The notes beneath the pieces are model-generated. The model was not told the DNA's origin. It did no database searches and was given only the letters and a program-made list of their open reading frames with translations. DNA of 64,000 bases from Bacteroidia bacterium (GTDB lineage Bacteria > Bacteroidota > Bacteroidia > Flavobacteriales_D > Cryomorphaceae), in NCBI GenBank assembly GCA_030427905.1, contig JAUICL010000001.1, positions 186,001-250,000 of the forward strand. The letters are read 5' to 3'. A program made the translations under genes and the position numbers. Below are positions 52,526 to 55,587 of this stretch, one piece after another. Every line of letters begins with the position of its first letter. Position 1 is the first letter of the stretch.

Positions 52526-53446
52526 TCATACTTTGATGAAAAACCCGCTTGAGAACGTGTACACATCAGATGTGTTGGCATTGTCAAAGAGTGGTACCAG
52601 ACCTACTTGGGCAAATAAGGTCAATCTTCTGTAACCCACTCTCACCAAGGCATCAGCCGACCATCGCGTAAAGCCCATGTCGCCTTTCAAGGTTGCCTTT
52701 CGGTCATTGCCGTCTAGCTCGTACTTCTGCTTGTACATATTGCCAATCAATACCTTTCCAATAACCCCAGCTGAGATGTGGAAAGCTCTGTCTTGATCGA
52801 GCGAAGTATTAAACTCCAACATCAACGGCACAGCCAGGTACGAGGCTCTCAGTTTGTTCTTCGTTACGTTCTTTTCACCAGATGGCACTGAAAACAGGCT
52901 GTCTCCACTAAAGACGAAGTCATTAGCTCCACTGTACTTCCAGTTATAAATCTGAAAGGAAAGGCCCGTGGTAATTCCAAAATAATTGTTGGCGATATTC
53001 ACCTTAGCCTGAGCAAAGTTGAACGAGATGTATCGTGATTTACCGTATTTCGGCTCTAAGAATTCAGCATCTTCCTGAAGGTTGAAATCGTGATTTTCAC
53101 TGAGAATTCCATTCACACCAAGGTCTATTCCATTCCACCAAGTAAGGGCGTACTTTGACTCTTTCTTATCATCTTCCCAATCATCGTCATCGCTGCTCTC
53201 TTTGCTCACAATTGTGATATAGGCGTTTTTCAGCTCAATTCTCGTCGTATCCACGTAGTTGGAGTCTACAGTCTGGGTGTAAACATCCCCTTTTATTTTA
53301 CCGTTCTCAATTTTCAGCTCACCTTTCTGGATGGTCATTGTAGTATCTTTGGGAGCGGGTTTTTGAGTCGAGTCTTGGCCAGCTGGTACTTGCCCAAATA
53401 CCGAGATCGAAATGATCAGTGCGAGTGTGGTAAGTACGTTTTTCAT
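52526..53446 (-). CDS. Outer-membrane beta-barrel protein of the ECF sigma locus
   Basis: 306 residues: a signal peptide ending VFGQ, a polar N-terminal region with an acidic stretch (SSDDDDWEDDKK, about 83-96), then an 8-strand-type outer-membrane barrel (about 100-306) that ends in a hydrophobic Val. The start at 53446 follows the leader; the upstream ATG at 53482 lies inside the promoter element. The gene sits after the sigma/anti-sigma pair but has its own copy of the TGTAAC-N17-CGTC element. It is therefore probably a direct target of that sigma factor. Its molecular role is unknown. Confidence 0.8.
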   Translation of the reverse strand: MKNVLTTLALIISISVFGQVPAGQDSTQKPAPKDTTMTIQKGELKIENGKIKGDVYTQTVDSNYVDTTRIELKNAYITIVSKESSDDDDWEDDKKESKYALTWWNGIDLGVNGILSENHDFNLQEDAEFLEPKYGKSRYISFNFAQAKVNIANNYFGITTGLSFQIYNWKYSGANDFVFSGDSLFSVPSGEKNVTKNKLRASYLAVPLMLEFNTSLDQDRAFHISAGVIGKVLIGNMYKQKYELDGNDRKATLKGDMGFTRWSADALVRVGYRRLTLFAQVGLVPLFDNANTSDVYTFSSGFFIKV

Positions 53447-53473: not shown

Positions 53474-53500
53474 GACGGTCACTCCTCTTCAGAAGTTACA
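53474..53500 (-). promoter_or_regulatory. Predicted ECF sigma promoter of the barrel gene
   Basis: On the minus strand TGTAAC (53495-53500) is followed after exactly 17 nt by CGTC (53474-53477), continuing ACATAC. The ATG is 27 nt beyond CGTC. The same element with the same spacing precedes the sigma gene. The layout matches known ECF promoters, for example TGTAAC-N17-CGAC of Bacillus sigma X. Confidence 0.65.
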
Positions 53501-53501
53501 A

Positions 53502-54773
53502 TCACTTTCTGGTTTTATGTTGAATTTTAAAATTTCGGATTCTGAGCGTGTAAGTCATTTCTTCTCCACTCTCTGATTCTTCTCGTTTTACTTCAGAATC
53601 GAGCATTGCCGCAGCGCGATCTGTAACTCGCTTTGCTACGGCAAGAGCCATTTGGTCTCTTTCTTCATCTGAAATATTCAGCTGCTCAGCAAGAATGTCT
53701 TGCGTAATCTCGGGTACGGTTCTGTACTTATCGTTTTCTTCTACTTTGGCAGGACTTTCGGCGGGGGTCTCCATAGGAACTTCAGCCGTGAGAATAGGTA
53801 AGTCTTCTAATATTGGTTGTGGAGTATCTGTGCTATCAATCACTTCAATCGGCTCTGGAGTCGATTCTTCCTCACGAGATGGCGCTTCACCTATCTCCTC
53901 TGCGATAAAAGCAGGATCAGGTTCTCTCACTTCCCACTCCTCTATCGGTGGGCTGAGTTTCTTTATTGGGGCAATTGTATCTACGATTTCCTCTTCGATT
54001 ATGCGACGAGGAGCTATCGTGTCTTCGCTTACCACCTTTCTGGTAGAATCTACCCGCTCACCACGCAAAGCATACTGCGCTTCTGGATCTGTGGTTCTGT
54101 TCAGAAAGATCGTAGTAGCCACAAGGCCAATAAGTAAAACAGCAGCTATGCGCCACCAAACCACGACTTTCTTTTCCTTCTTGTATAGCTTATTCTTGTC
54201 TGGATAGAAAACCCCTTTAGGCGCTGCAAGTTTCACATTCTTGGACAAGTTCAAGTCTTGAGCATTGGCATACGCTTCCAGGGCAGCTGTTTCTTCAGCG
54301 TTCAAATCTCCTTCTCCATATGCCCATAAAAACAAGTCATAATTAGCTGGAGTAACAGGGAGTTGCGGTGTGGTAATATAGAGATTGTCGGCCCCGTCCA
54401 TGACCACAGACGTATCGGCATCGAGCTTCGCTTTCTCCCAAGCTTCATACTGCTCTTGGTGCTCTTTTGATTGAAGTGCTTCGTTCAGCTTTTCTTTTTC
54501 AGTTTCAGATGCAGTCCCTTCCACCGACTTAAACATGATATGGTCTAAGTCATCTGAATTAGGCTTCTTTAGTTCTGACCAATCACTAGAAGTTTTCTCA
54601 TCGGGCGATAAGGTAGCCGTATCAGAATAAGAAACAAACTCTTCTAATTCACTTCGCAGCTCTGGATGTTTTGATAGAAAAGCTTCCAAAGCAGCGCTCT
54701 CCGCATCGCTGAGATTTCCCTCGACAAAATCGAGAAAGTAAGCTTCATAATTGTCTAAATTGATCTCCATCAT
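53502..54773 (-). CDS. Membrane anti-sigma factor-like protein with three N-terminal modules
   Basis: 423 residues with one membrane segment (about 203-224, VVVWWRIAAVLLIGLVATTI) dividing a cytoplasmic N-terminus from a periplasmic C-terminus. The cytoplasmic part holds three copies of one helical module of about 40 residues (about 7-46, 75-113 and 144-183), each with Y/H-x-x-F-x-x-x-x-E-G, then an acidic helix ending in a Leu-Glu/Asn-Glu stretch. No HxxxCxxC zinc site is present. The periplasmic part is Pro/Glu-rich (about 255-350) with a charged helical end. It overlaps the sigma gene by 4 bp, the standard arrangement for a cognate anti-sigma factor. Confidence 0.82.
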   Translation of the reverse strand: MMEINLDNYEAYFLDFVEGNLSDAESAALEAFLSKHPELRSELEEFVSYSDTATLSPDEKTSSDWSELKKPNSDDLDHIMFKSVEGTASETEKEKLNEALQSKEHQEQYEAWEKAKLDADTSVVMDGADNLYITTPQLPVTPANYDLFLWAYGEGDLNAEETAALEAYANAQDLNLSKNVKLAAPKGVFYPDKNKLYKKEKKVVVWWRIAAVLLIGLVATTIFLNRTTDPEAQYALRGERVDSTRKVVSEDTIAPRRIIEEEIVDTIAPIKKLSPPIEEWEVREPDPAFIAEEIGEAPSREEESTPEPIEVIDSTDTPQPILEDLPILTAEVPMETPAESPAKVEENDKYRTVPEITQDILAEQLNISDEERDQMALAVAKRVTDRAAAMLDSEVKREESESGEEMTYTLRIRNFKIQHKTRK

Positions 54774-55255
54774 ACCACTAAATCCATTCTTACGATGAAA
54801 TCTTTCAGGGCCTTTCTAGCTCGGAAGATGTATACTTTGACTTGAGCTTCTGACAATCCACATATTTCACCAATCTCCTTGTAGGCATAGCCTTCGTAAT
54901 CGCGTAAGAGAACAACAGACTTCTGTACTTCCGGTAGCTTATCGAGAGCTGTGTGTAGCACTTCGTTTAAGTCTGAATATTGATTGGAGTGCGAAAGATT
55001 CATTTCGTTCACTTCATCAAAATTGCCTTGCTTTTTCTCCCTCCTGATCATATCAATCATGGTGTGATATCCTGTCGAAAACAAATAGCTCTTCGCTTTA
55101 GAACCATCTACTTCATTCACTTTCAACCACATCTTCGCAAACGACTCTTGCACGAGATCGCGAGCCTTTTCGGTATCGCGCACGTGCTTGAGCATAAACC
55201 GATAGAGTCCATCGGCATGATGGTCTACACACTTATTATACTCATCTACGGTCAT
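54770..55255 (-). CDS. ECF-type RNA polymerase sigma factor
   Basis: 161 residues with sigma region 2 (about 10-75, LYRFMLKHVRDTEKARDLVQ then ESFAKMWLKV) and region 4 (about 105-155, YKEIGEICGLSEAQVKVYIF then RARKAL). It lacks regions 1 and 3, as ECF factors do. It should direct RNA polymerase to envelope-related genes when released by the membrane anti-sigma factor encoded next. A TGTAAC-N17-CGTC element 25 nt before its ATG matches that of the barrel gene, which suggests autoregulation. Confidence 0.93.
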   Translation of the reverse strand: MTVDEYNKCVDHHADGLYRFMLKHVRDTEKARDLVQESFAKMWLKVNEVDGSKAKSYLFSTGYHTMIDMIRREKKQGNFDEVNEMNLSHSNQYSDLNEVLHTALDKLPEVQKSVVLLRDYEGYAYKEIGEICGLSEAQVKVYIFRARKALKDFIVRMDLVV

Positions 55256-55280
55256 AGGCTTCTGATGTGGTCACGTGTGT

Positions 55281-55307
55281 GACGGACGAGAAAATGGATT
55301 AGTTACA
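55281..55307 (-). promoter_or_regulatory. Predicted autoregulated ECF sigma promoter
   Basis: On the minus strand TGTAAC (55302-55307) precedes CGTC (55281-55284) by exactly 17 nt; the sequence continues ACACAC. The ATG of the sigma gene is 25 nt beyond CGTC. A GTCAC/GTGAC inverted repeat (55270-55283) overlaps the CGTC part. Confidence 0.65.
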
Positions 55308-55353
55308 GCAAGATGTGAAAAAAGTATGGAATGGCTCTAAATGGTCGTGACTA

Positions 55354-55385
55354 TAGGGTAGTGGGTAGTGGGTAGTTGGTCGAAG
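55354..55385. repeat. Short GTGGGTA heptamer tract
   Basis: AGGGTAGTGGGTAGTGGGTA and a following GTTGGTC make about four 7-bp units. The complement TACCCAC appears in the heptamer tract at 55546-55566, so the two tracts are inverted relative to each other. Confidence 0.6.
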
Positions 55386-55433
55386 GTACAGGGTGAACAC
55401 ATGACCCATTAATTCTCATAAGGTAGCGGGTAC

Positions 55434-55450
55434 CCCGAAGTCATTTCGGG
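55434..55450. repeat. CCCGAA/TTCGGG hairpin
   Basis: A 6-bp perfect stem with the loop GTCAT. The core resembles CCCGAT...ATCGGGG in the terminators at 34-61 and 2942-2981, so it may be a dispersed palindrome of this genome. Confidence 0.45.
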
Positions 55451-55458
55451 CAACTCCC

Positions 55459-55587
55459 TACTCAATTCTCAGTACTGAATGCTCAACACTCAATACCCAT
55501 ACTCAATACTCAGTACTCAATACTCAGTACTCAATACTCAATACCCACTACAAAATACCCACTACTCAATACTCAGTACTCACCACC
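55459..55587. repeat. Degenerate heptamer tandem repeat (ACTCAAT / ACTCAGT)
   Basis: About 17-18 units of 7 bp, mostly ACTCAAT and ACTCAGT, with variants ACCCACT and ACAAAAT. One unit is a base short (ACCCAT). There are no spacers, so this is not a CRISPR array. It ends at the 3' end of lepA. Confidence 0.8.

Follow-up and report, generated by a model that had tools for sequence, protein, structure and literature searches.

The locus described here lies within a 64,000-nucleotide stretch of DNA that was analysed as a whole (hereafter, the window). It raises the question whether two matching bipartite sites, one in front of a sigma/anti-sigma operon and the other in front of the adjacent gene for an outer-membrane barrel (Table 1), are promoters, which sigma factor reads them, and what the encoded system might do, in a phylum, the Bacteroidota, where ECF signalling is poorly understood. 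Comparison of sequences and predicted structures suggests, as the best reading, an autoregulated envelope-sensing sigma system.

Table 1. Features of the sigma/anti-sigma/barrel locus (window positions) and of one target elsewhere in the genome
Feature	Position	Strand	Basis or remark
-35 element TGTAAC, sigma operon promoter	55302..55307	-	sequence; orthologous position kept in 37/40 and 69/80 loci
-10 element CGTC, sigma operon promoter	55281..55284	-	17 nt from the -35 element
ECF sigma factor, 161 aa	54770..55255	-	Sigma70_r2 and Sigma70_r4_2 over Pfam cut-offs; TIGR02937
Anti-sigma factor, 423 aa	53502..54773	-	position and domain plan, model me13cc29d464f, orthologue alignment; 4-nt overlap with sigma gene
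Predicted transmembrane helix of anti-sigma, residues 201-226	54096..54173	-	model helix and hydrophobic stretch in alignment
Folded periplasmic C-terminal domain of anti-sigma (predicted), residues 353-423, two helices and three strands	53505..53717	-	predicted model
Conserved C-terminal beta-hairpin of anti-sigma, residues 405-422, EMTYTLRIRNFKIQHKTR	53508..53561	-	tail HMM; profile match to small exported protein
-35 element TGTAAC, barrel promoter	53495..53500	-	sequence and conservation; 1 nt past anti-sigma stop codon
-10 element CGTC, barrel promoter	53474..53477	-	17 nt from the -35 element
Outer-membrane beta-barrel protein, 306 aa	52526..53446	-	PF13568, 36.3 bits (cut-off 27); structure model m63d222521a7d
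DTTRIELKNAYITIV motif just before the barrel	53207..53251	-	barrel homologue alignment; conserved
Small exported protein and its promoter (L167)	C5:1084465-1084811	-	100 aa; outside the window

The sigma ATG lies 25 nt beyond TGTAAC-N17-CGTCACAC and the barrel ATG 27 nt beyond TGTAAC-N17-CGTCACAT; the coordinates, both 17-nt spacers, the form CGTCACA(C/T)AC and the two start-codon distances given in the preliminary description are all correct. The barrel promoter fills the 55-nt gap between the anti-sigma and barrel genes. An alternative upstream start, GTG 53482, precedes the -10 element, which favours ATG 53446 as the likely start of the barrel gene; this ATG opens a normal-looking signal peptide. 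Pattern searches recovered TGTAAC-N17-CGTCACA twice in the 3.81-Mb genome (G000, 3,808,640 bases), both times in the window and at the distances from the start codons just given; when up to two mismatches (0, 1 or 2) were allowed, the window still yielded these two sites only. The earlier remark that no third copy appeared holds for the window but fails for the genome, where a site of the form AGTAAC-N17-CGTC is found (see below). The shorter TGTAAC-N17-CGTC occurs three times genome-wide, once within a 1009-aa reading frame in addition to the window pair, the extended form TGTAAC-W-N16-CGTC-N-Y-A matches exactly at the window sites only, and the refined pattern GTAACWW-N14/15-CGTCNYA gives 3 matches in the genome vs none for the reversed-pattern control. 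The count of the short motif in this genome is no higher than that of its reversed control, and the argument therefore stands on position, not on abundance.

In the order set, homologues of the sigma factor were collected by protein similarity, with the motif unused; they are present in 69 of 100 related genomes, and 40 loci were read at length. GTAAC-N16/17-CGTC is located 35-94 nt before the sigma start in 37 of these 40 loci, all from the same order, and about half of them carry a second copy 1.5-1.95 kb on, before the gene that follows the anti-sigma gene. The phylum set, a second collection of 80 Bacteroidota loci obtained by scanning named genomes, includes Flavobacteriales, Bacteroidales, Marinilabiliaceae, Marinifilum and Carboxylicivirga and partly overlaps the order set (contigs L193, L209, L210 and L232 are common to both). 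There, 69 of the 80 loci have the motif no more than 160 nt ahead of the sigma gene, with a spacing of 17 in 40 cases and 16 in 29, and no site with a spacing of 10-15 or 18-24 was detected upstream of the sigma gene. Since related genomes do not supply independent loci, these counts are not to be read as probabilities. Because homologues chosen by protein, without recourse to the motif, retain the sites, promoter function is supported, and the pair of sites before the same two genes across the phylum almost certainly represents, judging from this comparison, the promoters of one stress-type sigma factor. In the order alignment, GTAAC and CGTC are invariant; these letters defined the sites, so that the flanks alone are informative, and they show T-rich positions behind the -35 element and, behind the -10 element, a Y-A step. 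The earlier description, with its 17-nt spacer, needs widening here: a length of 16 nt occurs as well as 17, and conservation is confined to GTAAC...CGTC.

Among the 35 downstream sites of the phylum set, 31 are followed, 14-67 nt on, by a readable gene, and the products of 30 of these match the profile of the window barrel (E<1e-44, against none for the reversed control). In the reverse direction, 31 of the 38 barrel homologues that lie near the sigma gene in the 80 loci have a second copy of the motif. Four of the seven exceptions (L215, L233, L234 and L254), which are without the motif, start 15-22 nt past the anti-sigma stop and hence can share the first promoter of the sigma operon; in another exception, L179, the motif stands ahead of a frame that is split. 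The barrel model has small-barrel matches in the PDB. Covariation of the N16/N17 spacing between the sigma and barrel promoters, apparent within the order (p=0.0018), failed phylum-wide and was dropped.

The sigma factor belongs to the ECF group (sigma-70 group 4): regions 2 and 4 both exceed the curated cut-offs (PF04542, 47.3 bits against 24; PF08281, 65.8 against 25.7), as does TIGR02937 (88.1 bits against 42.9); the neighbouring gene, with a 4-nt overlap, encodes, in an arrangement kept in orthologues, a putative cognate anti-sigma partner; and the bipartite promoter appears to be autoregulated, as judged solely by conservation. The nearest curated models are TIGR02950, the SigM subfamily (111.4 bits, below the 147.95-bit cut-off), and NF058625, the GFO_1088/PG0214 sigma family (110.5 bits, below the 130-bit cut-off). 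Roughly 20 genes of the sigma-70 family pass the cut-off in this genome, and of these the window sigma gene alone has the full motif directly upstream. From this linkage, combined with the conservation, we infer that the window sigma reads both sites directly. The persistence of the sites at orthologous positions lends strong support to the proposal of the preliminary description, in which this factor drives the barrel gene as well as its own operon.

The most substantial alternative, although still improbable, is that the promoters are mainly read by another sigma factor, for example, the paralogue encoded downstream of a DUF4252 gene (C1:537981-539304). The operon of this paralogue (sigma gene at C1:538855-539304) is preceded by TGTAAC-N16-CGTC, with the same hexamer and -10 element, and orthologues of the window sigma tolerate N16 as well, so that the two factors may overlap in part in promoter recognition. 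Against this possibility, the motif stays, phylum-wide, with the window-type sigma gene and the neighbouring barrel, and, within the family, the window sites have N17 and the paralogue N16. In the same region of C1 (L002, L146), the DUF4252 protein that precedes the paralogous sigma gene bears a type IX secretion sorting tail, and this arrangement recurs in four relatives (L081, L084, L094 and L096).

The sites could also be viewed as operators of a dimeric regulator, given that each reads, in this genome, as an imperfect inverted repeat, TGTRAC-N18-GTYACA, and matches its own reverse complement with 3 mismatches. However, conservation fails for the ACA that completes the repeat, and with it for the ACA(C/T)AC extension of the window sites: CGTCTTAC, CGTCCTAC and the like are seen in relatives, with GTAAC and CGTC unchanged. 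Because the second arm is lost in this manner, the operator interpretation is rejected as very improbable. Least credible of all, to the point of being negligible, is chance resemblance: single TGTAAC-N16/17-CGTC sites do occur within coding regions, but the fixed spacing and the conservation at orthologous positions refute it. In the phylum set, there are 69 copies in 12.8 kb of upstream windows vs 4 copies in 661 kb of the antisense strand.

The regulon seems to extend beyond the locus. A third site, AGTAAC-N17-CGTC at C5:1084782-1084811(-), lies upstream of the gene for a small exported protein, 20 nt from its ATG; no Pfam family could be assigned to this protein. Orthologues of this protein are present in 12 of 100 relatives, from two families of the order, and the motif, with A or C as its first letter and a spacing of 16 or 17, precedes all nine of the readable ones, a count that leaves out L173, L175 and the weak match L176; five of the nine were found by protein alone and were unused in defining the motif. 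On this sequence evidence, the small protein probably belongs to the same sigma regulon. The two-member regulon envisaged originally is accordingly too small; both of its members are supported by conservation. A 190-aa probable outer-membrane protein (C4:122567) is a weaker candidate target. In other families, the same pattern appears before DUF5686 and M1 peptidase genes, according to motif-search lists that are less certain, and no match to the DUF5686 target was detected in the window genome at E 1e-20. A separate site, TGTAAC-N16-CGTC at C2:43758-43783 (L003), sits almost directly ahead of a dapB-like gene, 3-4 nt from its ATG, and possibly yields a leaderless transcript; this arrangement is also seen in a second genome (G003, L103), and G004 and G006 have matching sites.

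The anti-sigma factor matches no Pfam family over the cut-off (the zinc-binding anti-sigma family zf-HC2 scores 16.7 bits, below the cut-off of 22.2), and a Foldseek comparison of its model with the PDB returned nothing significant. The model, to be taken for its domain plan only (mean pLDDT 70.9, pTM 0.29), comprises helical modules (residues 1-196), the membrane helix, a disordered tether (about 233-347) and the folded end, with pLDDT values near 80 in the C-terminal blocks vs 40-50 in the tether. The protein is accordingly predicted to have an inhibitor part in the cytoplasm, a single membrane helix and, in the periplasm, a disordered tether that leads to a folded C-terminal end. Within the order, the tail HMM and the alignment show that nearly every orthologue retains the final hairpin. 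The small exported protein has a C-terminal hairpin that resembles it, and the profile of this protein aligns to the anti-sigma hairpin only (E=5.6e-4). When the tails of the small proteins were compared with shuffled sequences, five of seven were at or below 3/500; that of the window genome itself (35/500) is one of the two not separated from shuffles. A profile comparison of the barrel, with its DTT motif, and the anti-sigma tail was not significant (E=0.27); it gave no support for contact between the two, and their homology, considered at one stage, is an impression only.

Several known systems put these features into perspective. In Bacillus subtilis, the sigma X promoter consensus is TGTAAC-N17-CGAC, and the likeness noted previously holds in form only: TGTAAC and the 17-nt spacer are shared, but both window sites have CGTC in place of CGAC, and Bacillus belongs to another phylum and has no outer membrane. 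The Escherichia coli RpoE/RseA pair combines an autoregulated ECF sigma, a membrane anti-sigma and envelope targets, all of which are proposed here for the window system, whereas the promoter sequence differs and no RseA-like periplasmic part is recognised in the window anti-sigma. Closer phylogenetically, in Flavobacterium psychrophilum, SM6 promoters with a CGT -10 box have been assigned to ECF factors, with targets that include one sigma/anti-sigma pair, outer-membrane and secretion proteins, and several type IX secretion genes, and the responsible sigma was left open by the study (PMC9723704). The -10 box, the sigma/anti-sigma target and the outer-membrane targets are common to SM6 and the window system, and the several type IX secretion genes set SM6 apart (PMC9723704).

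It is highly probable that the window sigma reads both core promoters, those of an autoregulated sigma/anti-sigma operon and of the barrel gene, along with a third promoter for the small exported protein. Under this scheme, the sigma, once released by the anti-sigma, would transcribe its own operon, in a positive autoregulation with a built-in shut-off, as well as the barrel gene, from the second promoter, and the small protein gene, from the third. How release could be triggered is a more tentative matter. The C-terminal end of the anti-sigma might dock at the outer membrane, with the barrel as its simplest partner; if the docking partner were lost or misassembled, the sigma would be freed; and newly made barrel, together with the small protein and its similar hairpin, would restore or tune the inhibition. 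Taken together, these steps are plausible, with the odds falling somewhat short of even.

A further parallel comes from the Dma anti-sigmas of Bacteroides, where deletion of dma2 leads to strong induction of the dma2 operon itself and of neighbouring genes (PMC13088901). Common to Dma and the window system are the phylum, the adjacent sigma/anti-sigma pair and, in the predicted model, an inhibitor part, a membrane helix and a long disordered tether (PMC13088901). Dma ends in its own beta-barrel, whereas a small alpha/beta domain closes the chain of the window anti-sigma, and the barrel is encoded apart, by a gene that has a promoter to itself. By this analogy, the window anti-sigma may work like a Dma, though it is not classed as one. 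One could go further and envisage, speculatively and with considerable doubt, a phylum-wide split Dma, in which the tethered anti-sigma senses a separate, co-regulated barrel and the small protein is a diffusible competitor or adaptor, with feedback across both membranes. If a tethered anti-sigma indeed reads the state of the barrel, this would be a general route of envelope sensing. For a sigma factor that occurs throughout Bacteroidota, the ECF promoter rule obtained here is close to letter-perfect, and its targets are kept at orthologous positions; this renders the promoter, the regulon and the sensing testable in any tractable member of the phylum.

Some additional observations concern the sequences themselves. 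In distant Bacteroidota (L177, L207, L217, L229, L241 and L249), the same barrel is preceded by an extra N-terminal domain that, in our reading, resembles GIN/head domains. Some homologues (L188, L220, L236 and L237) have more than one copy of the DT-x-x-x-x-G motif that precedes the barrel, which gives it the look of a small repeating beta unit. The region that separates the lepA-like gene from the sigma promoter (window 55330-55500) contains short repeats, imperfect and CACTACCC- or GAGTATTGAG-like. Of the three helical modules of the anti-sigma, modules one (residues 1-60, window 54594-54773) and three (about 137-200, window 54174-54365) look like copies of each other, with 1/2000 shuffles as good; module two resembles module one (5/2000 shuffles) but not module three.
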